From contig AP019702.1 in assembly GCA_006739055.1 (NCBI GenBank), positions 5,233,388 to 5,297,387 on the forward strand: DNA of 64,000 nt, in the 5' to 3' direction. This DNA comes from Allostella vacuolata (GTDB lineage: Bacteria > Pseudomonadota > Alphaproteobacteria > ATCC43930 > Allostellaceae). Below, in pieces: positions 930-61,061 of this stretch; the stretch's first letter is position 1, and every line of letters starts with the position of its first letter. The notes beneath the pieces were generated by a model that made no database searches, was not told where the DNA came from, and was given only the letters and a program-made list of their open reading frames with translations. Made by a program: the position numbers and the translations under genes.

Positions 930-1676
930 CTACCCCAACGACTGGCGGATGGCCACCGCGCGATCGGGCCGGTCGGTGGTGAAGACGTCGACCCCCATCT
1001 CGAACATGCGGCGGATGTCGGCATCCTCGTTGGCGGCGAAGCCGCCGATGCCGATGCCGGCATCGCGCACCGCCTTGACCACGTCCGGCGTCAGCATCGT
1101 GCGATGGACGGACAGGGCCGGCACGCCGTGCAGCTTGGCCGTCGCGATGGCGCCGGCGATGCCGACGTCGGTCATCACATAGTTGGACAGGATCCAGATC
1201 GTGCCCTTGGGCCGGCAGTGGCGGCTGAGCGCCACCAGCGTCTCCACCTGGAAGCTGGTCACCGTCGTTCGGTCGAGCGCGCCCTCGGCCTCCAGCACCG
1301 CCGCGACCATGGCCGGGGTCTGGGGATAGGGCCGGCGGTCATGGTCGGGCTTGATTTCCAGCCGGAGCGTGATCGCAGTCGGGCGGAAGATCCCGACCAC
1401 GTCCTCGAGCGCCAGCATCCGCTCGCCGTCGGTGCCCTTCAGGGTCAGCTGCTGCAGCTCGGCCCAGCTCTTCGCGCCGATCGGGCCGGTGCCGTCGGAG
1501 GTGCGCTCCAGCACCGGGTCGTGGAACACCGCCAACCGCCCGTCGGTGGTCGGATGCACGTCGAACTCGACCTGCTCGACCGGCAGCAGGGCCGTGTTGC
1601 GGAAGGCGGTGGGGCTGTTCTCGGGCCACACCAGGGCGCCGCCGCGGTGGGAAGCGATCTCGGTCCGGATGGTCAT
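930..1676 (-). CDS. Glycerophosphodiester phosphodiesterase family protein
   Basis: Hydrolyses phosphodiesters of the glycerophospho-X type to an alcohol and a phosphomonoester; 248 aa, usual for small bacterial GDPDs. The catalytic set is visible: His10-Arg11 in ASHRGG, Glu37 and Asp39 in EFDVHPTTDG, His52 in VFHDP, and a later LEIKP strand. There is no signal peptide, so it acts in the cytoplasm, unlike periplasmic GlpQ. It lies 42 bases after the last permease of a peptide-type ABC transporter whose operon begins with a phosphonate monoester hydrolase. This places it as the intracellular hydrolase of an imported phosphodiester. Start at the ATG at 1676; the Shine-Dalgarno sequence is weak. 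Confidence 0.92.
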   Translation of the reverse strand: MTIRTEIASHRGGALVWPENSPTAFRNTALLPVEQVEFDVHPTTDGRLAVFHDPVLERTSDGTGPIGAKSWAELQQLTLKGTDGERMLALEDVVGIFRPTAITLRLEIKPDHDRRPYPQTPAMVAAVLEAEGALDRTTVTSFQVETLVALSRHCRPKGTIWILSNYVMTDVGIAGAIATAKLHGVPALSVHRTMLTPDVVKAVRDAGIGIGGFAANEDADIRRMFEMGVDVFTTDRPDRAVAIRQSLG

Positions 1677-1688
1677 GGTCGACGTTTA

Positions 1689-1733
1689 CCTGCGTGTGGG
1701 GCCTGCCTGAGGGTGGGCCTACCTGAGTGTGGG
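1689..1733. repeat. Three imperfect copies of a 12-bp direct repeat
   Basis: Read on the + strand, CCTGCGTGTGGG (1689-1700), CCTGAGGGTGGG (1706-1717) and CCTGAGTGTGGG (1722-1733) are spaced 17 and 16 bases apart. They span the last codons of the upstream permease gene and the leader of the phosphodiesterase gene. They may be replication slippage or a protein-binding array; the sequence alone does not decide. Confidence 0.6.
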
Positions 1734-2675
1734 ATCGAGGCGGTCGCGCAGCCAGTCGCCGACGATGCTGATCGACAGCGTGGTCAGGATGATGACGACG
1801 CTGGGGGCCAGCATGATCCACGGCGCGCGCGTGATGTATTCGCGGCCATAGCCGACCATGTTGCCGAGCGAGGTGAGCGGCGGCTGCACGCCGAGGCCGA
1901 GGAAGGACAGACCGGATTCCAGCAGGATCGTCTCGGGGAAGGCCAGCGTCATGCTGACGATCAGGGTGGAGGCGATGTTGGGCAGGATGTGGCGGCCGTA
2001 GATGCGCCAGGCGGGCGCGCCCAGTTGGCGCACCGCGCCGGCATAGCCCTGCTCGTTGGCCGAGATGGCGAGCCCGCGCGAGATGCGGGCGTAGCGCTCC
2101 CAGCCGTGGAAGCCCATCAGGCAGATGAACAGGATCAGCGAGTTGCCGAAGAAGGCCAGCACCGCCAGCGCGATGATGAGGAACGGCATCGACGCCTGGA
2201 AGTCGATCATCATCAGCACGATGTCCTCGACCCAGCCGCGGAAATGGGCGGCCAGGATGCCGAGGAAGGTGCCGAGCGCGGCGGCGATGAGCGTGCCGAA
2301 GAACGCGATCAGCAGGCTCATGCGGATCGAGTAGAGCAGCCGCGACAGCACGTCCCGGCCGAGCTCGTCGGTGCCGAGCAGGTGGCGGATGTCCCCGCCC
2401 CAGCCGACCGGCGGCGACAGGCGCGCGCGCAGGTCCATGGCGGTGTAGGCGTAGCCGGCCAGCACCTCGACGAAGGTGGCGATGAACAGCATGCCGACGA
2501 TCCAGGCGAGCGCCAGCAGGACCGAGGGCGGCCAGGCCTCGAAGAAGCGCGCGAGGCGGCCGCGCGGCGCCCGCTTGGCCGAAACCTCGGCCGGGGCCTG
2601 GTTGCGCTCGCGCGTCACGGCATCGCCGTCGGGGGCACGTTTGTCGGGCGCGCGGTTGTCGGTCACGATCGCCAT
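1719..2675 (-). CDS. Peptide-type ABC transporter permease (DppC-like)
   Basis: Inner-membrane permease of the DppC/OppC family, 318 aa, pairing with the DppB-like protein encoded just upstream. A charged cytoplasmic N-terminus (about 45 residues) precedes the first helix. The extracytoplasmic GTDELGRDVLSRLLYSIR motif, hallmark of DppC-type permeases, lies about one third in. The family's EAA-like loop (AGAVRQLGAPAWRIYGRHILPN) comes near the middle. It starts 3 bases after the DppB-like gene stops. Substrate is inferred from the operon (phosphodiester or phosphonate ester) rather than from this protein. Confidence 0.93.
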   Translation of the reverse strand: MAIVTDNRAPDKRAPDGDAVTRERNQAPAEVSAKRAPRGRLARFFEAWPPSVLLALAWIVGMLFIATFVEVLAGYAYTAMDLRARLSPPVGWGGDIRHLLGTDELGRDVLSRLLYSIRMSLLIAFFGTLIAAALGTFLGILAAHFRGWVEDIVLMMIDFQASMPFLIIALAVLAFFGNSLILFICLMGFHGWERYARISRGLAISANEQGYAGAVRQLGAPAWRIYGRHILPNIASTLIVSMTLAFPETILLESGLSFLGLGVQPPLTSLGNMVGYGREYITRAPWIMLAPSVVIILTTLSISIVGDWLRDRLDPTLR

Positions 2676-2678
2676 GGC

Positions 2679-3614
2679 TCAGCCCGCCCCGGCGACGCGG
2701 CGCGTGCGCAGCCGCGGATCGATCCAGCCATAGAGCATGTCCACCGTCAGGTTGGCGCAGACCATGGTCGCGGCGACGAACAGGAGGATCGTCTGCACCA
2801 CGGCCAGGTCGCGGTTGGCGACCGCGATCACCAGCAGCCGGCCGACGCCGGGCCAGCTGAAGACGCTTTCCACCACCACCGCGCCCGCCACCAGGCTGCC
2901 GACCATGAAGCCGACGATGGTGACGGTCGGGATGGCGGCATTGGGCAGGGCATGGTCGATGATCACCCGGCGCCAGGGCAGCCCCTTGGCCGAGGCGGTG
3001 CGGATGTAGGGCTGGCCCAGCACCTCCAGCATGGCGCTGCGGGTGAAGCGGGCGAGCACCGCCGCCCCCGCCGTGCCGAGCGTGATCACCGGCAGGATGC
3101 CGTGCACCCAGCTGTCCTGGCCACCCGACGGCAGCCAGCCGAGATTGACCGAGAAGACCAGCACCAGGAGCAGGCCCAGCACGAAGCTCGGCACCGTGAA
3201 GCCGGCGACCGAGAACAGCATGGTCAGCCGGTCGGCCAGCTTGTTGCGGTGGAGCGCGGCATAGATGCCGGCCGGGATGCCGATGCCGATCTTCAGGATC
3301 AGCGCCGGGATGGTGAGCGCCAGCGTCGCCGGCACCCGTTCCAGCACCAGCTCCAGCGCCGGCCGGCCGTCGCGCATCGAGCGGCCGAGGTTGCCCTCCG
3401 CGATCGCCGCGAAATAGTGGAAGTACTGCTCCCACACCGGCCGGTCGAGACCCCAGGACTTGCGGAACGCCTCGATCGCCTCGGGCGGGGCGTCCGGCGA
3501 CAGGATCAGCAGCGCCGGGTCGCCCGACAGGCGCAGGATGATGAAGGCGAAGGTGACGACGAAGCAGATGGTGAGGAGCGCCCGCACCAGCCGGGTCGAG
3601 AGATAGCGGAGCAT
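2679..3614 (-). CDS. Peptide-type ABC transporter permease (DppB-like)
   Basis: Inner-membrane permease of the DppB/OppB family, 311 aa. I chose the ATG at 3614 (MLRYLSTRLVRALLTI) over the upstream ATG at 3689 because CTAGGAGGGGG sits just before it and the N-terminus then begins directly with the usual first helix. Family marks are RLSGDPALLILSPDAPPEA after helix 1 (the conserved GDP segment), SRLAAV-like loops, and VESVFSWPGVGRLLV near the C-terminus. It begins 10 bases after the ATPase gene. It heterodimerises with the DppC-like partner. Confidence 0.93.
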   Translation of the reverse strand: MLRYLSTRLVRALLTICFVVTFAFIILRLSGDPALLILSPDAPPEAIEAFRKSWGLDRPVWEQYFHYFAAIAEGNLGRSMRDGRPALELVLERVPATLALTIPALILKIGIGIPAGIYAALHRNKLADRLTMLFSVAGFTVPSFVLGLLLVLVFSVNLGWLPSGGQDSWVHGILPVITLGTAGAAVLARFTRSAMLEVLGQPYIRTASAKGLPWRRVIIDHALPNAAIPTVTIVGFMVGSLVAGAVVVESVFSWPGVGRLLVIAVANRDLAVVQTILLFVAATMVCANLTVDMLYGWIDPRLRTRRVAGAG

Positions 3615-3624
3615 GGGCCCCCTC

Positions 3625-4653
3625 CTAGGCCGCAAGCCGAGGCGAATCCGCCTCGCCATGGGCAACGTGGCAGGCGACGATCCGGCCATCCGGCATCGGC
3701 TTCAGGACCGGCGTGTCGACGACGCAGCGCGCCGTCGCCGCCGGGCAGCGGGGGTGGAAGGCGCAACCGGCCGGCCGGTCGACCGGGTTGGGCGGATCGC
3801 CCTTCAGGATCAGCCGCGGGCGGCGCCGCGCGGCGGCCGCGACGGGGATCGCCGAGACCAGCGCCTGTGTGTACGGGTGGGCCGGGTCGATCAGCAGCTG
3901 GTCCGGGTCGCCCTGCTCGACGACGCGGCCGAGATACATGACCGCCACCTCGTGGCAGATCTGGCGCACCACCTTGAGGTCGTGGCTGATGAAGAGGAAG
4001 GCGAGGTCGAACTTCGCCTGCAGGTCGAGCAGCAGGTTGATGACCTGCGCCTGGATCGACACGTCCAGGGCCGAGATCGGCTCGTCGCAGACCAGCAGCG
4101 AGGGATCAAGGATCAGGGCCCGGGCCAGCACGATGCGCTGGCGCTGGCCGCCCGACAGCTCGTGCGGGTAGCGGGCGAAGAAGGAGGGGCCGAGCCCGAC
4201 CGCGTCGAGCAGTTCCATGGCCCGCGCGTGCCGTTCGGCGCGGGCGCCGATGCCGTGGATCGCCAGCGGCTCCATGACCTGGATGCCGACCGGGATGCGC
4301 CGGTCGAGGGCGCCGAGCGGGTCCTGGTAGACCATCTGCATGCGCCGGCGCATCGCCCGCCAGGCGGCGGTGCCGGGTGCGGGGACCGGCTCGCCTTCGA
4401 AGCGCACCTCGCCGCCGGTCGGCGACAGGACGCCCAGGACCAGGCGCGCGGTGGTCGTCTTGCCGCAGCCGGATTCGCCGACCAGCCCCAGCGTGCGGCC
4501 GGGCCGCAGGTCGAAGGACACGCCGTCGACGGCGTGCAGGGTGGCGGCCTTGCCGAACCAGCCGCCGGCGCGACGCACCTGGAAGCTGCGCGCGAGATCA
4601 CGCACCTCCAGCAGGGGGCGGTCGGAGACGGGACGCCGGAGGGTCTCGGTCAT
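3625..4653 (-). CDS. Peptide-type ABC transporter ATP-binding protein (DppF-like)
   Basis: Cytoplasmic ATPase of the OppF/DppF type, 342 aa. Visible: Walker A GESGCGKTT (59-67), signature LSGGQRQRI, Walker B LLVCDEPISALD, and the C-terminal oligopeptide-transporter extension with its paired cysteines (GCAFHPRCP and later ACHVAHG). Its ATG overlaps the stop of the DppD-like gene by 4 bases (ATGA), implying coupled translation. With the DppD-like protein it forms the heterodimeric motor of this transporter. Confidence 0.94.
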   Translation of the reverse strand: MTETLRRPVSDRPLLEVRDLARSFQVRRAGGWFGKAATLHAVDGVSFDLRPGRTLGLVGESGCGKTTTARLVLGVLSPTGGEVRFEGEPVPAPGTAAWRAMRRRMQMVYQDPLGALDRRIPVGIQVMEPLAIHGIGARAERHARAMELLDAVGLGPSFFARYPHELSGGQRQRIVLARALILDPSLLVCDEPISALDVSIQAQVINLLLDLQAKFDLAFLFISHDLKVVRQICHEVAVMYLGRVVEQGDPDQLLIDPAHPYTQALVSAIPVAAAARRRPRLILKGDPPNPVDRPAGCAFHPRCPAATARCVVDTPVLKPMPDGRIVACHVAHGEADSPRLAA

Positions 4654-5624
4654 GCTGCCATCGCAGTCTGGACGCGGATGCAGGCCGCGCGGTGATCGGT
4701 GGCGACATGCACCAGCGGCGGCACCCCCGTGGTGCAGGCGGCGATCGCCTGCGGGCAGCGGGGGGCGAAGGCGCAGCCGGGCGGCAGGCGCGCCGGCTCC
4801 GGCACGGTGCCGGGAATGGCGACCAGGCGCCGGCGCGGCCCGTCGAGGTCCGGCAGGGCGGCCAGCAGACCCGTCGTATAGGGATGGCGCGGCGCCGCGA
4901 ACAGCTCGGCCGTCGGCGCCTCCTCCACGATGCGGCCGGCATACATGACGGCGATGCGGTCGCTGTTCTCGGCGACGACGCCGAGGTCGTGGCTGATCAG
5001 CACCATCGACATGCCGCCGTCGCGCCGCAGCTCGCGCAGCAGGTCGAGGATCTGCGCCTGGATGGTGGCGTCGAGCGCGGTGGTCGGCTCGTCGGCGACC
5101 AGCATGTCGGGCTCGCCCGCCAGCGCCATCGCGATCATGACGCGCTGGTTGGTGCCGCCGGAAAGCTGGTGGGGATAGTCGTCAAGCCGGCGCCGGGCGT
5201 CGGCGATGCCGACCCGTTCCAGCAACCGCTTCGCCTCGGCCCTGGCCGCCGCGCCGTCGAGGCCGCGATGCAGGCGCAGCGCCTCGCCGATCTGGCGGCC
5301 GATGCGGTGCACCGGGTTGAGCGCGCTGGCGGGATCCTGGAAGATCATCGCCACCCGCCGCCCGCGCACCGCCTCCAGCCTCGCGGCCGGCACGCCGAGC
5401 AGCGGCTCGCCCGATAGCTGGACCGAGCCGCCGACATGGGCGCGGGGGCCGAGCAGGCCGAGTGCGGCCAGCCAGGTGACACTCTTGCCCGACCCCGATT
5501 CCCCGACCAGGCCGATTGCCTGGCCCTTGCCGATGGTGAGGTCGACCCCGTGCAGGACGCGGACGACCCGGTGGCCGAGGTCGAAATCGACCGTCAGCCC
5601 CCGGATCGAGACCAGCGTTTCCAT
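4650..5624 (-). CDS. Peptide-type ABC transporter ATP-binding protein (DppD-like)
   Basis: Cytoplasmic ATPase of the OppD/DppD type, 324 aa, partner of the DppF-like ATPase. Walker A is GESGSGKSV (41-49), Walker [13 protein letters not shown], and the C-terminal extension holds [11 protein letters not shown]. The ABC signature reads LSGGTNQRV where DppD proteins usually have LSGGMRQRV, a mild deviation that keeps the essential LSGG and QR. The gene starts 7 bases after the second binding-protein gene. Confidence 0.94.
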
Positions 5625-5631
5625 GAAGCGC

Positions 5632-7263
5632 TCAGCCCCGCGTCATCTTGAAGTTGCGGGCCCGGAAATCCATCGCGAAGGACGGCGCCGGCTTCCAGGA
5701 GATATCCTTGCGCTTGCCGGTGAAGACGGCGGTCTGGTGCAGCACGGTGTAGGCCGGATCCTCCCGCTCGCAGATCTCCAGCATGCGGTGGAACATCGCC
5801 CGGCGCTTGGCCCGGTCGGTCGACGTCTCCAGCTCGACCGACAGCTTGTTCATCTCCGCATTGGTCCACTCGCCGATCTGCTGCTGCTGGCCCTTCGGTC
5901 CATGCTGGTTGACGATCGAGGAGACCGGGTCGTTGAAGGGCGCGCTGTTGGACCAGTCGCGGACTCCGCGCGGGCTGTTGCGGTCGAAGATCTGGCCCCA
6001 GTTCTCCTTCATCTGGATCTCGACGTTGATGCCGACCGCGCGCCACATCTCGACCAGCACCTGGGCCGTCGAGTTCTGGTTCGTGTAGTAGTTGTTGAGC
6101 ACGCGATAGGGGATGACGCCGCCCTTGTAGCCCGCCTCGCGCAGGAGCTTCTTGGCCAGGTTCGGATCATAGGCCGGCACCGACCAGTCGGCATGGAACA
6201 TCTGGTCGTAGAATTCCCACTGCAGGCCCTTCGGCACCCGGGTGCGCCCGGCCCACAGGGCGTCGACGATCAGCTGCCGGTCGATGGCATGGCACATGGC
6301 CTGGCGGACCCGCGGATCCTTCAGCTCCGGGTGCGCCTTGTCGAAGCAGACCAGCCGGTGGTTGCCGATCAGGCCGCCCGACACCTCGTAGCGGGCATGC
6401 TTCTCGATCTCGGGCACCTGGTCGGGCGGAATGTCGCAGGCGAAGTCGTACTGGCCGGAGACGAGACCGTTGATGCGGCTCGCCACCTCGGGCACCACGA
6501 CCAGGCGGATCTGCTTCACCGGCGGGCGGCCGCCCCAGTAGTCGTCGAAGGCGGCCAGCGTCAGCGAGGTGTCGGGACGGAACTCCACCACCCGGTAGGG
6601 GCCGGTGCCGACCGGGCTGCGCGCCCATTCGAGCCAGCTCTTCGCCTCGTTGAAGGCGCGGCGCGAGATGATCTGCGAGCCGCCGCGGGCGATGCGGCCC
6701 TCGAGGGTGACGTCCGGCTGCTTGTTGACGAAGCGGACCGTGTACTTGTCCACGGCCTCGATCCGCTCGAGCGCGGGCCACAGCCGCTTGGCGACGGCGG
6801 GCACCTCGGGCGGCAGGTCCTTGGTGTCGCCCGGCACGACGCTGGTGAACAGCTTCTGTTCCGGCGCCCCGGCCTTGCCGAACATGCGCTCCGGCCCGAA
6901 GCTGAAGACGACGTCGTCGGCCGTCACCTCGTCGCCGTTGTGGAACTTCACGCCGCGGCGCAGCGACAGCTCCACCGTGCGGTCGTCGAGCCGCTTCCAT
7001 TCCGTGGCGAGGCCCGGAATCTGCTGCAGCTCGCGCTGCAGGTCCTGCTCGATCAGGCACTCGAACAGGCTGGTCATGATGCGGGTGCCGACGTTCGACT
7101 GCTCGCGCAGCGGCTCCAGGGTGTTCGCGTTGACCACCTGCTGGACCGCCACGGTGATCGACGGGCGGTCGTCGGCCTGGGCCAGGGCGAAGCGCGGCAG
7201 GGCGCCCACGGCGCCGGCGGCGGCACCGGCCTTGAGCACGGCGCGTCGGGTAAATCGGGTCAT
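5632..7263 (-). CDS. Tat-exported ABC solute-binding protein, second tandem copy
   Basis: Periplasmic solute-binding protein of the peptide/nickel (SBP_bac_5, DppA-like) family, 543 aa. The N-terminus FTRRAVLKAGAAAGAVGAL is a twin-arginine signal ending near ALAQADDRPS, so export is by Tat. Family marks include GVKFHNGDEVTADDVVFSF, PVGTGPYRVVEF and DPRVRQAMCHAIDR. It aligns almost without gaps to the 545-aa protein encoded immediately upstream; the two differ by a 2-residue insertion near residue 115. I chose the ATG at 7263 because it gives the complete Tat signal. It lies 14 bases after the first copy and 7 before the ATPase gene. Confidence 0.93.
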   Translation of the reverse strand: MTRFTRRAVLKAGAAAGAVGALPRFALAQADDRPSITVAVQQVVNANTLEPLREQSNVGTRIMTSLFECLIEQDLQRELQQIPGLATEWKRLDDRTVELSLRRGVKFHNGDEVTADDVVFSFGPERMFGKAGAPEQKLFTSVVPGDTKDLPPEVPAVAKRLWPALERIEAVDKYTVRFVNKQPDVTLEGRIARGGSQIISRRAFNEAKSWLEWARSPVGTGPYRVVEFRPDTSLTLAAFDDYWGGRPPVKQIRLVVVPEVASRINGLVSGQYDFACDIPPDQVPEIEKHARYEVSGGLIGNHRLVCFDKAHPELKDPRVRQAMCHAIDRQLIVDALWAGRTRVPKGLQWEFYDQMFHADWSVPAYDPNLAKKLLREAGYKGGVIPYRVLNNYYTNQNSTAQVLVEMWRAVGINVEIQMKENWGQIFDRNSPRGVRDWSNSAPFNDPVSSIVNQHGPKGQQQQIGEWTNAEMNKLSVELETSTDRAKRRAMFHRMLEICEREDPAYTVLHQTAVFTGKRKDISWKPAPSFAMDFRARNFKMTRG

Positions 7264-7277
7264 GTCACGGTCCTCCG

Positions 7278-8915
7278 TTAACCCCGGTTCATCTTGAAAT
7301 TGTGTGCGCGGAAATCCATCGCGAAGGAGGGTGCTGCCTTCCAGGCGATGTCCTTGCGCTTGGCGGTGAAGATCGCAGTCTGGTGCAGCACCGTGTAGGC
7401 CGGATCCTCGCGCTCGCAGATCTCCAGCATGCGGCGGAACATCGCCCGGCGCTTGGCCCGGTCGGTGGAGGTTTCCAGCTCGACCGACAGCGTGTTCATC
7501 TCCGCGTTGGTCCACTCGCCGATCTGCTGCTGCTGGCCCTTCGGCCCATGCTGGTTCACCAGCGAGGCCAGCGGATCGTTGTAGAGGGCGCTGTTCGACC
7601 AGTCGCGCACGCCGCGCGGCGAGCCGCGGTCGAAGACCTGGGAGAAGTTCTCTTTCATCTGGATTTCGACGTTGAGGCCGACGGCGCGCCACATCTCGGT
7701 CAGGATCTGGCCGGTCGCGGTCTGGTTCGGGTAGTAGTTGTTGAGCAGGCGATAGGGGATGGCCCCGCCCTTGTAGCCGGCCTCGCGCAGCAGCCGCTTG
7801 GCCTCCGCCGGGTCGTAGGCCGGCACGGCCCAGTCCTCGTGGAACATCTGGCCGTAGAATTCCCACTGCAGGCCCTTGGGCACGCGGGTCCGGCCGCCCC
7901 ACAGGGAATCGACGATCAGCTGGCGGTCGATCGCGTGGGTGAAGGCCCGGCGCACCCGCGGGTCGCGCAGCTCCGGGTGGTTCTTGTCGAAGCAGGTCAG
8001 GCGATGGTTGGTGACGAGGCCGCCCGAGACCTCGAAGCGCGGGTTCTTCGTCACCTCGTCGACCTGGTCGGGCGGGATGTCGCAGGCGAAGTCGTACTGG
8101 CCGGAGAGCAGGCCGTTGATGCGGCTCGCCGCCTCCGGCACGACCACGAAGCGCAGCTGCTTGATCGGCGGCCGGCCGCCCCAGTAGTCGTCGAAGGCGA
8201 CCAGCGTCAGCGACACGTCCGGTCGGAACTCGGCGATCCGGTAGGGGCCGGTGCCGACCGGCTTGCGCGCCCATTCCAGCCAGTTCTTCGCTTCCGTGAA
8301 GGCCCGGCGCGAGATGATCTGCGAGGCCAGCCGGCCGATGCGGCCCTCCAGCGTCACGTCCGGCCGCTTGTTGACGAAGCGGACCGTGTACTTGTCGACG
8401 ATCTCCACCCGGTCGAGCGACGGCCAGAAGCGCCGTGCCACCGCGATCACCTCGGGCGGCAGGTCCTTGGTGTCGCCGGCGACGACGCCGGTGAAGAGCT
8501 TCTGGTCGCCGCCGCCGCCGCCGGCCGGGCCGAACATGCGCTCCGGCCCGAAGCTGAAGGCCACGTCCTCGGCCGTCATCTCGTCGCCATTGTGGAACTT
8601 GACGCCGCGGCGCAGCACCAGCTCGACGGTGCGCTCGTCGATGCGCTTCCACTCCGTCGCCAGCCCCGGGATGTCCTCGAGGTTGCGCTGCAGGTCCTGC
8701 TCGATCAGCGCCTCGAGGAAGCACGGCATGATGCGGTAGCCGACGTTCGACTGCTCGCGCAGCGGCTCCAGTGTGTTGGAGTTGACCACCTGCTGGACGG
8801 CGACGGTGATCGACGGACGGTTGTCGGCCTGGGCGAACGCCGGCCGGCCGAACGCGGCCACCGCGCCCCCGGCGGCACCGGCCTTCAGGAGGTCGCGGCG
8901 CGTTAGGCCGATCAT
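7278..8915 (-). CDS. Tat-exported ABC solute-binding protein, first tandem copy
   Basis: Periplasmic SBP_bac_5 family protein, 545 aa, with twin-arginine signal LTRRDLLKAGAAGGAVAAF and likely cleavage after AFAQA. It is a close tandem paralogue of the next gene and carries a short GGGGG run near residue 115 that the other lacks. Differences cluster in the middle (for example NHRLTCFDKNHPELRDPRV against NHRLVCFDKAHPELKDPRV), where peptide-type binding proteins hold ligand, so the pair may widen the substrate range. Its ATG overlaps the stop of the phosphonate monoester hydrolase gene by 4 bases. Confidence 0.93.
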   Translation of the reverse strand: MIGLTRRDLLKAGAAGGAVAAFGRPAFAQADNRPSITVAVQQVVNSNTLEPLREQSNVGYRIMPCFLEALIEQDLQRNLEDIPGLATEWKRIDERTVELVLRRGVKFHNGDEMTAEDVAFSFGPERMFGPAGGGGGDQKLFTGVVAGDTKDLPPEVIAVARRFWPSLDRVEIVDKYTVRFVNKRPDVTLEGRIGRLASQIISRRAFTEAKNWLEWARKPVGTGPYRIAEFRPDVSLTLVAFDDYWGGRPPIKQLRFVVVPEAASRINGLLSGQYDFACDIPPDQVDEVTKNPRFEVSGGLVTNHRLTCFDKNHPELRDPRVRRAFTHAIDRQLIVDSLWGGRTRVPKGLQWEFYGQMFHEDWAVPAYDPAEAKRLLREAGYKGGAIPYRLLNNYYPNQTATGQILTEMWRAVGLNVEIQMKENFSQVFDRGSPRGVRDWSNSALYNDPLASLVNQHGPKGQQQQIGEWTNAEMNTLSVELETSTDRAKRRAMFRRMLEICEREDPAYTVLHQTAIFTAKRKDIAWKAAPSFAMDFRAHNFKMNRG

Positions 8916-10471
8916 GCCATCTCTCCCGTCTCGGCGTAGGCGCGTTCCTCCAGCCCCTTGGGGGTGGAGCGATAGTGGGTCAGCGTGCGCTCGGCATAGC
9001 GCATCCGCCAGTTCAGCATCTTCTGGGCGTAGTCGCGGACCAGCGTCGCGTAGGCCGGGTCGTCGGCCCGGTTCTCGAACTGCCCCGGATCGCGCTTCAG
9101 GTCGAAGAGCAGCGGCGGCAGGGCCGCGAAGTGGACATACTTGAAGTCATGGTCCTGGACGACCGCGAGCGAGCACTCGTCCATGTGCAGGCCGAGCGCG
9201 GTCTCCGGCTGCGAGTAGAAGATGTCGCGGAAATCGAACTCGTAGTGCACCTCGGTCCGCCAGTCGGCGGGCCGGCCGCTGCGGGCGAAGGGCAGCAGGC
9301 TGCGCCCGTCGCACTGCCGCGGGCGCGGGGCGCCGAGCCATTCCATGATCGTGGGGAAGGTGTCGATCGTCTCGCTGAAGTCGTCGACGATCGTGCCGCG
9401 CGTCGCGTCCGCCTCGGGAGAGGGGTCGCGCAGGATCATCGGAATGCGGAAGCTCTCGTCGAAATAGCCGATCTTGCCGAGCATGTGATGGTCGCCCAGC
9501 TGCTCGCCATGATCGCAGGTGAAGATGATCAGCGTGTCGTCCCACTGCCCGGTCTCATCCAGGAAGGCGAAGACCCGGCCGAGCTGGTCATCGATCTCGC
9601 TCATCAGCCCGCGATAGGTGGCGCGCATCTGGCGCACCTCGGCATCGCCCAGATCCTTGGCAAAGCCCTTGGCGTTCTGGAAGAAGCCGCTCTTGCCGAT
9701 GTGGTTGACGTAGAAATCGAGCAGCGGGTGCTGGGCCGCTTCCGCCGCGGGCGAGGCGGCGCGCACCGGCGAGGGCATGTCGGCCGCGTCGTACATCGCA
9801 TTGTAGGGGGCGGGCGCGATGAACTGCGGATGCGGCCGGTAGTAGCCGAGATGGAGGAACCAGTTCCCGTCGCGGCGCCCCTTCAGGTAGGTCAGCCCGC
9901 GGTCGGTGAAATAGGCGGTGTCGCTGAGCTCGGCCGGGATGCGCGACGGGCGCGCCGTCGGGCCGGGCACGGCATCGTCGCCCTGCGGCATCCAGATGTC
10001 GGCGCGGTTCGGCGGCAACTCGAAACCGTGGGCCGCGACCCAGCCGAAATACCCGTCCATCGCCGGCTCGAACGGCCCGACCGAGCGGAACCCGTCCATC
10101 AGGTCGCCCAGGATCTTGAAGCGCGGGTCGTCGGCGCTGGTGGTGCGCGGGTCGGGGGTGGTGGTGGTGTAGCCGACCAGCGCCGGATCGTAGCCGGCGC
10201 GGCGCAGCGCCCGGCCCAGCGTGTCGTGGCGGTGATCCAGCGGGATGGTGTTCTGCACCGCCCGGTGGTTCATCTGATAGAGGCCGGTCAGCAGCGAGGC
10301 ACGGGCCGGGCCGCAGGGGGCGGTCTGGGTGAAGTGGTTGCGGAAGGTCACGCCCTCGCGGCACAGCCGGTCGAGGTTGGGCGTGTGGAGGTTCTCCATC
10401 CCCAGACATGCGAGATGATCGCCGCGCCACTGATCGACGACGATCAGCAGCACGTTCTTCGGTCGGCCCAT
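8912..10471 (-). CDS. Phosphonate monoester hydrolase-type sulfatase-superfamily enzyme
   Basis: Alkaline phosphatase/sulfatase-superfamily hydrolase, 519 aa. It matches the Rhizobium phosphonate monoester hydrolase (PMH), recalled from memory, along its whole length. PMH cleaves phosphonate monoesters and phosphodiesters with a formylglycine made from cysteine. Visible: metal Asp13 in VVDQW, the CxPxR maturation motif with Cys53 (APCGPARAS), the PMH-specific YTTTTPDPRTT segment carrying the Tyr/Thr pair, LGYYRPHP, and CDHGEQLGDHHMLGK with metal Asp-His and a Lys 13 residues on, the PMH spacing. No signal peptide is present, so it is cytoplasmic. It is the first gene after the Pho box. An arylsulfatase is the less likely alternative. 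Confidence 0.9.
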   Translation of the reverse strand: MGRPKNVLLIVVDQWRGDHLACLGMENLHTPNLDRLCREGVTFRNHFTQTAPCGPARASLLTGLYQMNHRAVQNTIPLDHRHDTLGRALRRAGYDPALVGYTTTTPDPRTTSADDPRFKILGDLMDGFRSVGPFEPAMDGYFGWVAAHGFELPPNRADIWMPQGDDAVPGPTARPSRIPAELSDTAYFTDRGLTYLKGRRDGNWFLHLGYYRPHPQFIAPAPYNAMYDAADMPSPVRAASPAAEAAQHPLLDFYVNHIGKSGFFQNAKGFAKDLGDAEVRQMRATYRGLMSEIDDQLGRVFAFLDETGQWDDTLIIFTCDHGEQLGDHHMLGKIGYFDESFRIPMILRDPSPEADATRGTIVDDFSETIDTFPTIMEWLGAPRPRQCDGRSLLPFARSGRPADWRTEVHYEFDFRDIFYSQPETALGLHMDECSLAVVQDHDFKYVHFAALPPLLFDLKRDPGQFENRADDPAYATLVRDYAQKMLNWRMRYAERTLTHYRSTPKGLEERAYAETGEMA

Positions 10472-10532
10472 GGGTACGTCGCCTCTTCCCAGCTACGGCG
10501 GTAGCCCGCCTCTTATCAGGGGGAGCCTACAG

Positions 10533-10554
10533 ATTCTTGACGGATTTATGACAG
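10533..10554 (-). promoter_or_regulatory. Pho box upstream of the phosphodiester operon
   Basis: On the minus strand the site reads CTGTCATAAAT followed by CCGTCAAGAAT, two 11-base direct repeats. The first 17 bases, CTGTCATAAATCCGTCA, match the classical PhoB consensus at all but one position. A further CTGT-starting 11-mer follows. The site ends 61 bases before the hydrolase ATG and sits in a locally AT-rich patch. A weak -10 candidate, GATAAG, lies at 10512-10517. Regulation by PhoB is inferred from sequence match and gene content. Confidence 0.75.
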
Positions 10555-10560
10555 TGAAAT

Positions 10561-10630
10561 TTCGTTCGGGCGCCTGCATCTTTTTTCAACAGACCCGAGA
10601 CACAATCGTCTCGGGTCCGTCCCGAACGAA
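10561..10630. repeat. Nested pair of perfect 10-bp inverted repeats
   Basis: Outer arms are TTCGTTCGGG (10561-10570) and CCCGAACGAA (10621-10630). Inner arms are GACCCGAGAC (10592-10601) and GTCTCGGGTC (10608-10617) around a 6-base loop. Both pairs are perfect. The element lies 28-97 bases after the DUF1445 stop codon and directly upstream of the Pho box, so it probably insulates the two operons. The inner hairpin lacks a following U tract on either strand, so ordinary rho-independent termination is uncertain. Confidence 0.6.
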
Positions 10631-10657
10631 CCAGCCATTTGCGCGTGCAATCGCCGC

Positions 10658-11485
10658 CTACGGGGCGCAGACCCGGTCGGATTCCAGGTCCGAGATCAGC
10701 CCCTTGGACGGCGCGGAGGTGATCATCAGCTCGATCCCCGACACCTCCGCCACGGCCTGCGGGGTCATGCTGCATGCCCAGAAAACAGGCACCACATCCT
10801 TGGGAATCTCCGGCACCGGGTCGCCCATCATCGGATGCTCCAGGTCGCAGCCGAGCGCCGCCGGATCGCCGATGTGGATCGGCGCGCCGTGGTTGAAGGG
10901 GAAGCGGCCGGTGAGCTGGGTCGCGATCAAGGCCTCCCTGGGCGTCAGCCAGCGCATGGTGACGACCAGCGGCCCGTGGAACGGCCCCGCCGCCTCGGTC
11001 TCGACCTTGGTGCGCAGCACCCAGCGGTTGCGCTCGGTCTGCACCCCGGCGCGACGCAGCGCCAGGTCGCAGGAGGTGTTGGAGCCGATGCAGAAAGCCA
11101 CGGAATCGTCGCGCCACAGGTCGACGATGTCGGTCCGGTAGCCCTCCAGCACGCCGTGGCGATAGACCGAATAGCCGGGGCTGTCGGTGCGCAGGTCGGC
11201 CCCGGGCGCGATCCGCCGCGGCTCGGGGTCGCCCGGGTCGGTCACGTCCAGCACCGGGCAGGGCCGCTGGTTGCGCTGGCAGAACAGCAGGAAGTCGAAC
11301 GCCAGCGCCTTGGGCAGGACGACCAGCGCGCACTGCACATGGCCGAGTGCGACGTTGCGGGTGGTGCGCAGCGTGAAGCGGCCCTCGCGCATCACCTGGC
11401 GCACCTCGCGCGGGGTCATCCGGCCATATTCCTCCAGCGTCGGCTCCCGCGGCTGGACCCGGTCCTCGACCATGCTCGTGGACAT
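10658..11485 (-). CDS. DUF1445 putative hydro-lyase (D-glutamate cyclase family)
   Basis: A 275-aa cytoplasmic protein of the DUF1445 family, annotated as putative hydro-lyase. Relatives include mammalian D-glutamate cyclase and Bacillus YcsI from the 5-oxoprolinase locus. Recognised from the N-terminal TPREVRQVMREGRF segment, the VAFCIGSNTSC motif and the C-terminal AEVSGIELMITSAPSKG and LESDRVCAP ending. It starts 28 bases after the TctC-like gene and appears to be the last gene of the TctBAC operon, suggesting that it acts on the carboxylate imported by that carrier. The actual reaction is not visible from sequence. Confidence 0.88.
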   Translation of the reverse strand: MSTSMVEDRVQPREPTLEEYGRMTPREVRQVMREGRFTLRTTRNVALGHVQCALVVLPKALAFDFLLFCQRNQRPCPVLDVTDPGDPEPRRIAPGADLRTDSPGYSVYRHGVLEGYRTDIVDLWRDDSVAFCIGSNTSCDLALRRAGVQTERNRWVLRTKVETEAAGPFHGPLVVTMRWLTPREALIATQLTGRFPFNHGAPIHIGDPAALGCDLEHPMMGDPVPEIPKDVVPVFWACSMTPQAVAEVSGIELMITSAPSKGLISDLESDRVCAP

Positions 11486-18100: not shown

Positions 18101-19702
18101 TCAGCGCTGCATGTAGGCGTCGGCGAAGCCGTCGCGGACGCCGATCGCCGAGGTCACGACGTTGCGGAAGCGCTTGTCGATGAAGGTCGGGAACTCGAGC
18201 TCCAGCAGCCAGGCGACCGGCACGTCCTCCACCAGGATCTTCTGGATCTCGGTGTACATCTTCTGCGCCTCGCCCGCGTCGGCCGAAACCGCCGCCTTGT
18301 CGAACAGCGCGTCGATGCGCGGGTTGGAGTAGCCGTTGACGTTGCTGAACAGCACCCCCTTGCGGATGTTGCTGGAGACGTAGAGGCGCGACACGCCGAG
18401 CGCCGGGTGGCCCAGCTGGCTCAGCACCTGCAGCGTCATCTCGTAGTCCCAGTTGCGCACCCGGTCGCCCCAGGTGGCGACGTCGGCGCTGCGCAGGGTG
18501 ACCTGGATGCCGACGCGGCCCAGCGCCTGGCGGATATACTCGCCGGCCCGGACATAGACGTCGCCATAAGGCAGCTGGTCCATGGTGATGCGGGCGCGCA
18601 CCCCGTCGGCGCCGCGCTTCAGCCCCATCTCGTCGAGCAGCGCCTCGGCCTTCTTGGGGTCGAAGGCGTATTTCGGCACGTTGGCGTCATAGTGCGGGAT
18701 GCTGGAATGGATCGGCCCGGTCGCCGGCTTGCCGAGCCCGAACCAGACCCGGTCGCGCAGGAAGTTGCGGTCGATCGCATGATAGACGGCCTGGCGGAAG
18801 CGGCGGTCGTCGAGCGGCTTGGCCCGCAGGTTGAAGTCCAGCCAGACGATCTGGGCCAGGTACTCGTAGCCCTTGGTGGTCATCTCCAGGTGCGGCATCG
18901 CCTTCAGCCGCGGCACCTCGAAGGTCTCGATGTCGGCGAAGGCCGACAGGTGGGTCTGGCCCGTCTCCATGGCGACCGTGCGCGCGCTCGCGTCCGGCAG
19001 CACGCGGTAATAGATCTCGTCGAGGTAGGGCTTGCCCTTCTGCCAGTAGTCGTCGTTGCGCACCAGATGGATGTGCGAGCCGCGGACCCATTCCTTGAGC
19101 TTGAAAGGCCCGGTGCCGATCGGCTTGGCGTTGGCGGGGTTGGTGCGGAAGTCGGTGCCCTCGTAGATGTGCCTGGGCACGATCGGCGCGGTACTCGGCT
19201 CCCAGGCCATCAGGAAGGGCGCGAACGGGCCCTTCAGCTTGAACACCACCGTCAGCGGGTCGGGTGCGGTGATCGTCTCCGCGCGCTGGAAGATCGGGCG
19301 CGAGCGCGGGTGGACCGCCGTCAGATAGGTCTTGGCGCTGAAGACCACGTCGTCTGCCGTGAACGGCGTGCCGTCATGCCACTTCACGCCCTCCTGCAGC
19401 TTGAAGGTGTAGGTCAGCCCGTCGGGCGAGACCGACCACGACTTGGCCAGCCCCGGCATCGGCTTCAGGTCGAAGTCGTAGCGCAGCAGGCTCTCGTAGA
19501 TCTTGCCGCCGACGATGGCCGCCGGGGTGGTCTGGTTGATGCCGAGCATGAGCGTCGGCGGCTCGGGCGAGATGATGATGTTCATCGTGCCGCCGCGCGC
19601 CGGCGCGGGGGCCGGCGCCTGCGCCAGGGCCGGCCAAAGGGCCGCGGATGCGGCCAGGAGGATGCCGGCCGCGACGGCCCGCAGGGGGTGGATGGAAGGC
19701 AT
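18101..19702 (-). CDS. Peptide-type ABC transporter solute-binding protein
   Basis: Periplasmic SBP_bac_5 family protein, 533 aa, with a Sec-type signal (LRAVAAGILLAASAALWPALAQA) and no twin arginine, unlike the pair at 5632-8915. Family marks: EGVKWHDGTPFTADDVVFS, PIGTGPFKLKEW and DRRFRQAVYHAIDR. It is the first gene of the ABC operon running to 14585 and diverges from the M81 peptidase gene across a 131-base region holding a GTATAC operator. Not clearly related in detail to the first ABC system, so probably a different substrate. Confidence 0.94.
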   Translation of the reverse strand: MPSIHPLRAVAAGILLAASAALWPALAQAPAPAPARGGTMNIIISPEPPTLMLGINQTTPAAIVGGKIYESLLRYDFDLKPMPGLAKSWSVSPDGLTYTFKLQEGVKWHDGTPFTADDVVFSAKTYLTAVHPRSRPIFQRAETITAPDPLTVVFKLKGPFAPFLMAWEPSTAPIVPRHIYEGTDFRTNPANAKPIGTGPFKLKEWVRGSHIHLVRNDDYWQKGKPYLDEIYYRVLPDASARTVAMETGQTHLSAFADIETFEVPRLKAMPHLEMTTKGYEYLAQIVWLDFNLRAKPLDDRRFRQAVYHAIDRNFLRDRVWFGLGKPATGPIHSSIPHYDANVPKYAFDPKKAEALLDEMGLKRGADGVRARITMDQLPYGDVYVRAGEYIRQALGRVGIQVTLRSADVATWGDRVRNWDYEMTLQVLSQLGHPALGVSRLYVSSNIRKGVLFSNVNGYSNPRIDALFDKAAVSADAGEAQKMYTEIQKILVEDVPVAWLLELEFPTFIDKRFRNVVTSAIGVRDGFADAYMQR

Positions 19703-19762
19703 GGAACATCCTCCGGAAGGGGTGCCGACGCTTTCCGCCGGCCGGGCGAAACGGCAGCGTAG

Positions 19763-19772
19763 ATTGTATACT
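19763..19772. promoter_or_regulatory. Candidate GntR operator between the ABC operon and M81 gene
   Basis: ATTGTATACT sits almost midway in the divergent promoter region: its GTATAC core (19766-19771) is 63 bases from both the binding-protein start (19702) and the M81 start (19834). On the + strand TATACT (19767-19772) could serve as the -10 hexamer, and on the minus strand TATACA could do the same, so one bound repressor would shut both directions. Confidence 0.55.
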
Positions 19773-19833
19773 GCACGGAATGCAATATGCCTCGATCAAG
19801 CGATCCACGCCTCAAGCCCGGTGGGAGAAACCG

Positions 19834-21291
19834 ATGCCGCGTACCCTGGCCGTCGCCCGGATCTGGTTGGAAGTGAACTCGTTCTCGCCGGTGCCGAGCG
19901 TGCTGGCCGACTTCGAAGGCAGTGAATGGGCGCGGGGTCCGGCCGTGCTCGACCGCTTCCGCGGCACGCCCACGGAACTGGGCGCGGTCGCCGCCTTCGC
20001 CGACGCCAATCCCGACTGGCATGTGGAGGTACTGCGCTGCGCCGCCGCCCAGCCGGGCGGCCCGATGGATGACGGGCTGTTCGACCAGTTCCTGGAGGAG
20101 GTGCGCTCGGGCCTGGCGGCCGGCCGCTGGGACGCGGTCTACCTGTCCCTGCACGGCGCGCTGGCGACCGAGCGGCGGCGTACCCCGGACCTCGACCTGC
20201 TGCGCCTGGTGCGGGAGACCGTGGGAGAGACGCCGATCGGCGCCAGCTTCGACATGCACGCCAACATGGCGCCGGAGATCGCCCGCATCGCCGACGTCGC
20301 CGCCGGCTACAAGACGCTGCCGCACATCGACATGTTCGAGGTGGGCGAGAAGGTGCTGGGCATGCTGGTCGCGACGGTGGAGCGCCGCATCCGCCCGGTC
20401 GGCATCCTGCTGCGGGCGGGCCGCATCATCCACAGCCACAACATGCGCACCGCCGACGGCCCGATGAAGGACCTGGAGGAGATCGCCCGCGACCTGACCC
20501 GGCCGCCGATCCTCGACGTCACCCCGTTCGGCGGCTTCCCCTGGGCGGACACGCCCAACACCGGGGCGTCGGTGATGGTCTATGCCGACGGCGACGCGAA
20601 TGCCGCCGCGGCTGCGGCCGGGATCATGGCCGAGGCCATCCGCCGCAAGGCGCCCGAGTTCGCGGTGGTCCGCCCGGGGCCGGCCGAGGGCCTGCGGCAG
20701 GCGCTTGAGCTGGGCGTCGGGCCGGTCGCGGTCGTCGAATCCTCGGACAACATCTATTCGGGCGGCATCGCCGACACGCCCGGCCTGCTGCAGGCCCTGC
20801 TCGACCTGGCGCCGGGCGATCCTTGCGTATTCGCCTTCTTCTTCGACCCGCCGATGGTGGCCCGCGCCCATGCCGCCGGCCTGGGCGGCCGGGTCGCCGG
20901 CACCCTGGGCGGACGGATCAGCGGGGATTTCGGGCCGCCCGTGGCGATCGACGCCGAGGTGGTCCGCCTGACGGACGGCGTGTTCGTCAACCGGGGACCG
21001 ATGCTGCGCGGCGTCGAGACCAACCTCGGCCGCACCGCGGTCTTGCGCATCGGGCAGGTGGACGTGATCGTCACCGAGCGCCGCGAGCCGGTCAACGACC
21101 TCGCCTACATGGAGCTGCACGGCATCGACCTGGCCCAGGTGCGGCTCTTCTGCATCAAGGCCAAGAACCATTTCCGCGCCGCCTACGGCCCGGTCTGCCG
21201 CGCCTTCGTCGAGGTCGACACGCCGGGCCCGGCCGGGGTCGACCTCGCCCGCCTGCCGTTCCGCTTCGCCCCGGTCGAGGAGTACGTCTGA
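19834..21291 (+). CDS. M81 family metallopeptidase (MlrC-like)
   Basis: A 485-aa member of the M81 family, named for microcystinase C (MlrC). The residues proposed as zinc ligands in MlrC have counterparts with nearly the same spacing: His107 (LSLHGALATE), Asp140 and His142 (SFDMHANM), His164 (YKTLPHIDMFE); an N-terminal WLEVNSFSP matches the family's E-x-N-x-F opener. There is no signal peptide. I chose the ATG at 19834, preceded by GGGAGA, over an upstream in-frame ATG at 19780 that would place translation next to the operator. It diverges from a peptide-type ABC importer, so it probably hydrolyses what that imports. The substrate is unknown. Confidence 0.9.
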   Translation: MPRTLAVARIWLEVNSFSPVPSVLADFEGSEWARGPAVLDRFRGTPTELGAVAAFADANPDWHVEVLRCAAAQPGGPMDDGLFDQFLEEVRSGLAAGRWDAVYLSLHGALATERRRTPDLDLLRLVRETVGETPIGASFDMHANMAPEIARIADVAAGYKTLPHIDMFEVGEKVLGMLVATVERRIRPVGILLRAGRIIHSHNMRTADGPMKDLEEIARDLTRPPILDVTPFGGFPWADTPNTGASVMVYADGDANAAAAAAGIMAEAIRRKAPEFAVVRPGPAEGLRQALELGVGPVAVVESSDNIYSGGIADTPGLLQALLDLAPGDPCVFAFFFDPPMVARAHAAGLGGRVAGTLGGRISGDFGPPVAIDAEVVRLTDGVFVNRGPMLRGVETNLGRTAVLRIGQVDVIVTERREPVNDLAYMELHGIDLAQVRLFCIKAKNHFRAAYGPVCRAFVEVDTPGPAGVDLARLPFRFAPVEEYV

Positions 21292-59427: not shown

Positions 59428-60993
59428 CTACCAGACGCCGAAGAAGATGCCGTGCTCCTTGTGCCGTGCCGTGCGCTGGCGCACCTCGGCGTCGGACAGG
59501 GTGGTCCGCAGCTTGCGCGCCCGCGCCCATTCCCACAGCCGGTCGCGCATCTCCGCCCGGACCGGGCGATGGCCGGGCGACTGCCCCAGGTCGACCCGCT
59601 CCTGCGGGTCCTCCTCGAGGTCGAAGAGCTGCGGCCGGAAGCCCAGCCAGTCGACATATTTCCAGCGCTCGGTCCGGACCATCCAGGCGCGGCATTCCGC
59701 CGGCTCGCGGCCGAGCGTCAGCCGCGCCTGGCGGAAGGCGTAGTCGAGTTCCGAGAAGGCCGCCTCCCGCCAGGTGACGGGGCCGGGGCCGCGCGTCAGC
59801 GGCAGCAGCGAGCGGCCCTCCAGCAGGTGCGGGGCGCCCGGCGTACCGGTCGCCTCCAGGAAGGTCGGCAGCAGGTCGATCGCCTCCACCAGCCGGCGCT
59901 CCACCCGGCCGCGGGTGGCGTCGGCCCGCGGGTCGGGGTCGACGACGATCAGCGGCACCCGGATCGCCTCCTCGTGGAAGATCTCCTTCTCCCCCAGCCA
60001 ATGGTCGCCCAGGAAGTCGCCATGGTCGGCGGTGAAGACGATCAGCGTGTCGTCGAGCCGGCCGAGGCGGCCCAGCGTCTCCACCAGCCGGCCCATATGG
60101 TGGTCGATCTGGGCGACCAGGCCCATGTAGGCCGGCCGCACCCGGCGCACGACCTCCTCGCGGGCAAAGTTCCGGGATTCCTCGTGCCCGCGATAGGCCG
60201 CGATCACCGGATGCGGCTCGACCAGCTCGGCCGGGTCGCGGTTGAGCGGCAGGCAGTCCTCCGGCCCGTAGAGCGCGTGGTAGGGAGCGGGCGCCATGTA
60301 GGGCCAGTGCGGCTTGACGTAGCTGAGATGCAGGCACCAGGGCGCGTCGCCCTGGTGCTCGACGAAGCGGATCGCCTGGTCGGTCATGTAGGCGGTCTCG
60401 GAATGCTCCTCGCGCACCCGGGCGGCCAGGTGGGCGTGGCGCATGTGCCAGCCGCTGACCACGCGGCCGTCCGGCGCCTCAGCCGAGATCACCCAGTCGT
60501 TCCAGGGATCGTCGCCGCCATAGCCGTGGGCCGCCAGGAAGGCCGGGTAGCCGCTCTCCCGCCCCGGGCGGCTGTGGCCGTCGTAGCGGTCGAGGGATTC
60601 GAACCCGCCCTCGCGCAGCAGGGCGGCCAGGGCCGAGCCGCCCTCGATGCCGAACCGGGCGAGGCCGTCGGCATCGGGCAGGACATGGGTCTTGCCGGCG
60701 AGCGCCACCCGCATGCCGGCCGGCCGCAGGTAGTCGCCGATCGTGCGTTCGCGCACCGACAGCGGCACCCGGTTCCAGGTGGCGCCGTGGCTGAACATGT
60801 AGCGCCCGGTGTAGAACGACATGCGCGACGGGCCGCACACGCCCGACTGCACATAGGCGCGATCGAAGCGCACGCCGCGCCGCGCCAGACGGTCGAGGTG
60901 GGGGGTCTTCAGGTGCGGGTGGCCGGCGGCACCCAGATGATCCGCGCGCAACTGGTCGCACATGACGAACAGGATGTTCCGAACGCTGCCCAT
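59428..60993 (-). CDS. Sulfatase-like hydrolase
   Basis: Sulfatase-superfamily enzyme of 521 aa. The formylglycine motif is Cys53 in GVCGPSRMSF (C-x-P-S-R, the standard sulfatase form), metal site MCDQLRADHLG at the N-terminus, catalytic LAGKTHVLP, HLSYVKPHWPY, and the metal pair in FTADHGDFLGDHWLGEK. It lacks the YTTTTPDPRTT segment of the phosphonate hydrolase at 8912-10471, so it is a different subfamily (choline- or aryl-sulfatase-like). No signal peptide is seen. I chose the ATG at 60993, preceded by GGGGAGGGG. Substrate unknown. Confidence 0.9.
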   Translation of the reverse strand: MGSVRNILFVMCDQLRADHLGAAGHPHLKTPHLDRLARRGVRFDRAYVQSGVCGPSRMSFYTGRYMFSHGATWNRVPLSVRERTIGDYLRPAGMRVALAGKTHVLPDADGLARFGIEGGSALAALLREGGFESLDRYDGHSRPGRESGYPAFLAAHGYGGDDPWNDWVISAEAPDGRVVSGWHMRHAHLAARVREEHSETAYMTDQAIRFVEHQGDAPWCLHLSYVKPHWPYMAPAPYHALYGPEDCLPLNRDPAELVEPHPVIAAYRGHEESRNFAREEVVRRVRPAYMGLVAQIDHHMGRLVETLGRLGRLDDTLIVFTADHGDFLGDHWLGEKEIFHEEAIRVPLIVVDPDPRADATRGRVERRLVEAIDLLPTFLEATGTPGAPHLLEGRSLLPLTRGPGPVTWREAAFSELDYAFRQARLTLGREPAECRAWMVRTERWKYVDWLGFRPQLFDLEEDPQERVDLGQSPGHRPVRAEMRDRLWEWARARKLRTTLSDAEVRQRTARHKEHGIFFGVW

Positions 60994-61061
60994 GCCGCCC
61001 CTCCCCAAGGTGGGGCAGCTTTCGCCCTCCGCCCCCTCCGCGTCAAGGCGCGCGGCGTCGA

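Follow-up and report, generated by a model that had tools for sequence, protein, structure and literature searches.

Promoters activated by PhoB, of the type found at E. coli phoA and pstS, carry CTGTCAT-type 7-mers repeated every 11 bp, and this box replaces the -35 element. In E. coli phoA, where the box has two units, 28 bp separate the first unit from the TA step of the -10 element; in promoters of this type with more units, the TA step lies further off, by about 11 bp for each additional unit. The promoters of phnG, pstS and ugpB are well-established PhoB targets, and the E. coli-type consensus of the Pho box is CTGTCATAWAWCTGTCA.

Phosphonate monoester hydrolases-phosphodiesterases (PehA/PMH) are well-known cases of catalytic promiscuity that also cleave phosphonate monoesters and sulfate esters in vitro; to our knowledge, their natural substrate is open. 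The enzymes of Burkholderia caryophylli and Rhizobium have been characterized enzymatically, according to works cited in PMC5649143. In the acc system of the Ti plasmid (pTiC58, AccA-AccBCDE-AccF-AccG), the binding protein AccA and an ABC transporter are paired with a cytoplasmic phosphodiesterase, AccF, as described in PMC4526662, and phosphate limitation is reported to switch the operon on (PMC4086400, citing Kim et al. 2008). The Xanthosan system, AvrBs2-XanT-XanP, similarly imports a sugar phosphodiester and cleaves it as a nutrient, according to PMC12807533.

Here we describe a locus in a 64,000-nucleotide stretch of Allostella vacuolata DNA (hereafter, the window) that shares features with each of these systems. 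We put the probability at roughly 80% that a site upstream of its pehA gene is a PhoB-activated promoter of an operon for phosphodiester import and cytosolic cleavage, acc-like in layout and with a PMH in the place of AccF. Pho boxes and Pho-regulated use of phosphodiesters are known, and a box of this sort is nothing unusual; what is new is that PMH, an AccA-like transporter and a Pho box occur together in a conserved triple link. Among the papers listed from the open-licence literature (most subscription journals lie outside it), we found none linking PMH/PehA with PhoB, a Pho box or phosphate starvation.

The box occupies 10522..10554 on the minus strand. It lies in the 186-bp spacer between a D-glutamate cyclase family gene (PF07286; 10658..11485, minus), which we do not think is part of the operon, and pehA (8912..10471, minus), and it faces pehA on the same strand, 83 bp from its start. 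The array is assigned from its consensus match, its score with a trained matrix, the conservation of its core in Stella and the phasing of units in orthologs. Read on the minus strand, its three 11-bp units are CTGTCATAAAT (10554-10544), CCGTCAAGAAT (10543-10533) and CTGTAGGCTCC (10532-10522), in the context TTTCA CTGTCATAAAT CCGTCAAGAAT CTGTAGGCTCC CCC TGATAAGAGG. With two clear CTGTCAT-like units 11 bp apart and a weak third, the array contains the pair of phased units that marks the Pho type. Compared with E. coli PhoB promoters, the site is alphaproteobacterial in flavour, has a weak third unit, and is a PhoB site by prediction from its sequence. A plus-strand target was considered and rejected: ORF 10470-11141 begins beyond the box and overlies the D-glutamate cyclase family gene, and the box faces pehA.

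The first-pass annotation had described a near-perfect Pho box, matching the consensus at all but one position in an AT-rich patch of a GC-rich window, and both parts of this description hold. The 17-mer CTGTCATAAATCCGTCA agrees with the E. coli-type consensus CTGTCATAWAWCTGTCA at 16 of 17 positions (16/18 over 18 bases), and the runners-up in the 64 kb reach 12/18, at 8 places. Among 100 order-1 Markov sequences of 64 kb, none reached 16 matches and 4 reached 15. The GC content of the patch (10520-10570) is 47%, vs 71% for the window.

We trained a Pho matrix on the regions upstream of phnG (11), pstS (30) and ugpB (23), drawn from a search of 61 genomes, namely the window's own and those of relatives. 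Matches to the E. coli-type consensus served as seeds, 52 distinct sites were kept, and PMH promoters were absent from the training set. The window site scores 21.2 bits with this matrix; its second and third units alone score 13.0 bits and the next non-overlapping site in the window 10.5 bits. None of 200 column-shuffled matrices finds an equally good place in the window.

Our genome-wide statements rest on three pattern searches of the 5.83-Mb, single-contig genome, and matrix ranks are given among the pattern matches that were scored. The exact pattern CTGTCATNNNNCNGTCA occurs once, at the window site; with up to one mismatch it is found in 12 places vs 2 for the reversed control. The pattern CTGTCATNWWWCTGTCAY with up to three mismatches is found in 17 places vs 3 for the control, and two overlapping matches precede a ugpB-type gene above the family cut-off. 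The strict pattern YGTCAYNWAWNNKYMA is found in 9 places vs 0 for the reversed control. Four of the nine are promoters of phosphorus operons: the window site, phnG (C-P lyase), a second ugpB, and a ugp-like operon in which a UgpC-like ATPase gene lies near a UgpB-like gene, both below their cut-offs. Among the remaining strict matches, one lies before an XRE-cupin regulator gene (assigned by eye), one is intragenic, and three have no sense-strand gene in the gene calls.

By score, the window site ranks sixth among the pattern matches scored. Above it are sites of 23.7 bits (ugpB), 22.9 and 22.4 bits (no clear sense gene), 22.2 bits (phnG) and 21.5 bits, the last preceding a permease gene with weak similarity to PhnV. 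An abundance of equal scores outside Pho contexts had been named beforehand as an outcome that would speak against the box; among the scored pattern matches equal scores do exist, since five other places reach or exceed the score of the window site, and about half of these are in Pho contexts. The genome also encodes PhoB itself (346 bits, above the family cut-off of 296).

An alignment of four Stella genomes shows a spacer that has largely diverged and, within it, conservation of the box core and of part of the -10-like element. The invariant positions are TTTCACTGTCA, GT.A of the second unit, GTAGG in the third, TAAGA within the -10-like element and some of the bases immediately ahead of the start codon. 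For more distant comparisons, the E. coli consensus alone was rejected as a criterion because it was too weak: the best matches in 80 loci were 9-14, and a reversed-consensus control came close behind.

The trained matrix was used in its place, and each ortholog operon was scanned on the sense strand over the 250 bp ahead of its first gene. The ortholog set is the best 80 of 123 matching stretches (63-93% identity in the best segment), and after an incomplete locus was dropped (L089; L numbers designate individual loci) 79 were scanned. A sense-strand box of at least 8 bits precedes 71 of these 79 PMH-ortholog operons, and one of at least 12 bits precedes 57. As control promoters we took 526 further upstream regions, drawn from 75 of the loci; among these, the sense strand reaches at least 8 bits in 33 and at least 12 in 10, and the antisense strand at least 8 in 50. 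When the loci are grouped into 26 clusters by upstream sequence, a sense site is found in 20 and an antisense site in 4. Scores stay under 8 bits at eight loci, namely L015, L017, L026, L027, L029, L047, L092 and L074 (7.9 bits).

A single Reyranella-type cluster accounts for 45 of the 79 loci, and we treat it as weaker evidence because its element, TCGTCACGATCTTGAAAC, has no clear third unit. Outside this cluster, the sense strand reaches at least 8 bits in 27 of 34 loci and at least 12 in 21, vs 7 of 34 with at least 8 bits on the antisense strand. At L084 and L087, the sense scores are 9.7 and 9.6 bits vs antisense scores of 10.3 and 10.2. In five loci the PMH gene comes last in the operon; in 4 of these the box, with at least 8 bits, has shifted to the start of the SBP gene, and it is strong only in L019 (16.1 bits). 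The counts change little with the training set, in which 16 of 64 loci were shorter than expected and were taken at a fixed offset, with some regions misplaced. Retraining without these 16 (48 regions, 44 sites) gives 21.4 bits for the window site, at least 8 bits at 67/79 loci and sites in 18/26 clusters, and when nine Stella loci, two of them from the window's genome, are removed as well (39 regions, 36 sites), the figures are 21.0 bits, 71/79 and 19/26.

The promoter geometry also follows the PhoB type. A predicted -10-like element, TGATAAGA (10511..10518, minus), has its TA step 39 bp from the start of the box and 17 bp from the start of the third unit. We compared 17 promoters: that of the window and those of 16 loci that have a sense site and lie outside the Reyranella-type cluster. 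When single-unit scores are ranked over 81 offsets in these promoters, offset 0 comes first, +11 second, +22 third and +33 fourth, the last two lying outside the matrix. In 15 of the 17 representatives, the distance from the start of the box to a -10-like TA step is 28, 39 or 50/51 bp, so that successive distances differ by roughly the length of one 11-bp unit. The distance is 28 bp in L073 and L086, each with two good units, 39 bp in the window, L013, L014, L060, L038 and L019, and 50 or 51 bp in L064, L041, L069, L045, L065, L068 and L072. TA steps number 25 in the interval between offsets 24 and 57, and 16 of them sit at these four offsets (28, 39, 50 and 51), which were picked after looking. 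Under a stricter rule, which counts 17 bp to the TA from the start of whichever positively scoring unit comes last, 10 of 17 promoters conform (L065 off by one), and L060, L072, L088 and L083 break the rule; the three Stella promoters, the window's included, obey it only when their weak third unit is taken into account.

These results qualify the earlier claim that a third CTGT-starting 11-mer continues the phase. The phase is real in the orthologs, as the rank of offset +22 shows, and the unit itself is weak in the window, where CTGTAGG matches CTGTCAT at 4 of 7 positions and scores -1.1 by the unit matrix. Taken together, unit phase and TA spacing support the prediction of genuine PhoB-type promoters and support the third unit.

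Downstream of the box, eight genes run on the same strand, with pehA first and a glycerophosphodiester phosphodiesterase (GDPD) gene last. PehA/PMH (8912..10471, minus) scores 957 bits with NF045661 (cut-off 900), belongs to PF00884, and carries a CGPAR (CxPxR) motif; its best PDB matches, full-length, are the Burkholderia caryophylli and Rhizobium enzymes (2w8s, 821 bits; 2vqr, pRL90232, 815 bits). We saw no signal peptide in PehA/PMH by eye. A candidate for formylglycine maturation is present in the genome as an FGE-sulfatase domain protein (PF03781) over the cut-off. Two AccA-like family-5 binding proteins follow, SBP1 (7278..8915, minus; PF00496) and SBP2 (5632..7266, minus), which are 80% identical. 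Next come ABC transporter genes, each below every equivalog cut-off: ATPases of OppD/DppD type (4650..5624, minus) and OppF/DppF type (3625..4653, minus), and permeases of OppB type (2679..3689, minus) and OppC type (1719..2675, minus). The start codon of the OppB-type permease may lie further in, as most family matches start at residue 26. The GDPD (930..1676, minus) is UgpQ-like, with 103 bits to NF006989 (below the cut-off of 264) and 157 bits to PDB 3ks5.

The gene order recurs elsewhere. Among the best 80 of 123 stretches, PMH comes first in 25 loci and is followed by SBP and Opp genes (L014, on a cut contig, lacks Opp), and in 6 loci, one of them incomplete, the Opp block comes first and PMH last. 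In the other 49 of these 80, PMH stands without an SBP-Opp block in the available sequence; where contigs are short, this carries little weight. On plasmid pRL9 of Rhizobium johnstonii 3841 (L060), an annotated PehA gene heads the matching gene order and has a sense box of 12.8 bits; the structure-solved Rhizobium enzyme pRL90232 (2vqr) appears to be the product of this pRL9 gene.

A Pho box on every PMH-like gene is ruled out, since two PMH-like paralogs of the genome have none (5.7 and -9.0 bits). The paralog with -9.0 bits lies in the window at 59428-61008 (minus) and is a second PMH-like protein of the sulfatase superfamily, with 323 bits to NF045661, below the cut-off of 900.

The binding proteins are closest to AccA. 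The seven best distinct PDB sequences for SBP1 and SBP2 are all AccA entries except 8cke, which has a generic molecule name and a score nearly equal to theirs. AccA scores 283 bits against SBP1 (4ra1) and 280 bits against SBP2, vs 119 and 126 bits for the best chain outside the AccA group. PMC4526662 describes AccA as contacting phosphate through Asn54, Ser419, Tyr375 and Tyr376, and the pyranose through Asn54, Ser419, Asn284, Glu510 and others. We transferred AccA residues by eye on an alignment with SBP2, with a chain-to-paper numbering offset of 28. SBP2 keeps Asn54, Tyr375, Tyr376, Ser419 and the hinge residue Asn284; it lacks the sugar-pocket residues Tyr145, Trp178, Trp423 and Glu510 and differs from AccA at Met372, Thr430 and Glu434. 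By eye, then, the pyranose-2-phosphate pocket of AccA is incomplete, with its phosphate contacts kept and its sugar-pocket residues lost. The phosphate contacts and the hinge Asn also read across by eye to all eight aligned SBPs of PMH operons. These keep the motifs SNVG, NYY and WSN and the hinge Asn, none of which is seen in a different SBP of Opp type encoded in the window and aligned with them. ORF 19582-21171, also placed in this alignment, was discarded as non-homologous and likely in the wrong frame.

Since the AccA sugar-pocket residues are not conserved, the ligand is probably not agrocinopine; it is likely a phosphodiester with a different head group. With the AccA pocket only partly present, we do not class the operon as acc itself. 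Like acc, it combines an AccA-like SBP, an ABC transporter and a phosphodiesterase, and acc too is under phosphate-limitation control. It differs in having PehA/PMH in the place of AccF and, in the window, an additional UgpQ-like GDPD; family matches named no AccF, AccG or AccR among the genes of the run. It also lies on a chromosome-sized contig in Stella and on plasmid pRL9 in Rhizobium. The resemblance to the Xanthosan system is one of import and cleavage, whereas the families of that system, a TonB-dependent transporter and a 2H phosphoesterase, are unlike those of the window.

The first-pass annotation had also held that the adjacent genes serve phosphorus acquisition. The gene content of the run, with PehA/PMH, AccA-like SBPs and a GDPD, looks suited to the uptake and cleavage of molecules that contain phosphorus; together with PhoB in the genome and a box conserved across genera it supports this claim. 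We infer the following course of events in the cell. When phosphate is scarce, phosphorylated PhoB would bind the tandem 11-bp units, which stand where a -35 box would otherwise be, and bring RNA polymerase to the -10 element TGATAAGA, switching on pehA-SBP-SBP-oppDFBC-GDPD, presumably as one transcript. The AccA-like SBPs and the Opp-type ABC transporter would bring in small phosphodiesters, most likely those of sugars or glycerol. The formylglycine hydrolase PehA/PMH, if cytosolic as predicted, and the GDPD would then cut the diesters in the cytosol into phosphomonoesters and, finally, phosphate.

The repeat could instead be bound by another regulator of the OmpR family whose direct-repeat site resembles that of PhoB. 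Other response regulators do exist in the genome, as the PhoB model has 69 matches there and only one is over the cut-off. However, the matrix was derived solely from the promoters of the PhoB targets phnG, pstS and ugpB, and the unit sequence, the 11-bp spacing and the distance to the -10 element, judged against E. coli phoA, fit the PhoB class, so that we find a different regulator improbable. A chance match, with an AT-rich stretch between genes resembling the Pho consensus by accident, is highly improbable in our estimation. At the 47% GC of the patch, weak matches of at least 8 bits arise in 17% of cases per 233 positions on one strand, and many intragenic PhoB sites are transcriptionally inert in E. 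coli, according to PMC10294691. Even at 47% GC, however, a composition model expects a score of 21.2 bits only 0.0002 times in the 186-bp spacer, and chance is contradicted by conservation across Stella and across genera in orientation, phase and distance.

A further alternative accepts the box and concerns the purpose of the operon, which might be the use of phosphonate monoesters or sulfate esters instead of phosphodiesters. The enzyme family is named for phosphonate monoesters, the C-P lyase gene phnG of this genome has a Pho box of its own, and PMC5649143 raises the possibility that a distant PMH-like enzyme releases phosphonates from esters of marine polysaccharides. Against these points, the operon-linked GDPD and the AccA-like binding proteins point to phosphodiesters, and sulfate-ester use would leave the Pho box unexplained. 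The GDPD argument is not decisive, because an operon-adjacent GDPD was found only in the window, L013, L015, L019 and L089. On balance we hold a phosphonate or sulfate purpose to be unlikely and favor a PhoB-controlled operon for phosphodiester uptake and cleavage.

The presence of a similar box before relatives of the operon suggests a purpose for a much-studied enzyme. A conserved Pho box and AccA-like SBPs in one operon give PMH a concrete candidate role, the scavenging of phosphodiesters. The ligand of the AccA-like transporter is directly measurable, and the Rhizobium pRL9 locus makes the reading testable. More tentatively, and with somewhat less than even confidence, we suggest that across the Alphaproteobacteria the natural job of PehA/PMH may be that of the cytosolic phosphodiesterase in PhoB-controlled, AccA-like uptake of environmental sugar-phosphodiesters. 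If true, acc would have a widespread counterpart outside tumour-inducing bacteria, implying a pool of agrocinopine-like phosphodiesters outside plant tumours.

Several observations were made along the way. In the Reyranella-type cluster, the element lies mostly 88-97 bp upstream of pehA (e.g., in L022) and is strongly conserved. Its first part, TCGTCACGATCTTGAAAC, fits the Pho matrix; in L022, L037 and L067, the three loci inspected, a CACGTG palindrome follows that is not part of a Pho box and may bind another factor. In L060, the pehA spacer also holds a 23.1-bit antisense Pho box (8865-8882) that points away from pehA, and the genes upstream of it run in the direction of pehA. In L026 (8091-10996), a further SBP_bac_5 protein, 43% identical to SBP1 of the window, has a 17.6-bit Pho box upstream and is followed by a PF01663 gene (type I phosphodiesterase/nucleotide pyrophosphatase); PF01663 also follows the Opp block in L068.

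Elsewhere in the genome, the 22.9- and 22.4-bit sites at C1:1606367-1606384 (L093) and C1:1345414-1345429 (L210) have no clear sense-strand gene in the gene calls; perhaps a small RNA or a small gene lies behind them. A 19.9-bit Pho-like box at C1:3532106-3532121 (L213) lies 68 bp upstream of the XRE-cupin regulator gene assigned by eye, making its product a possible candidate for a secondary regulator under phosphate control.
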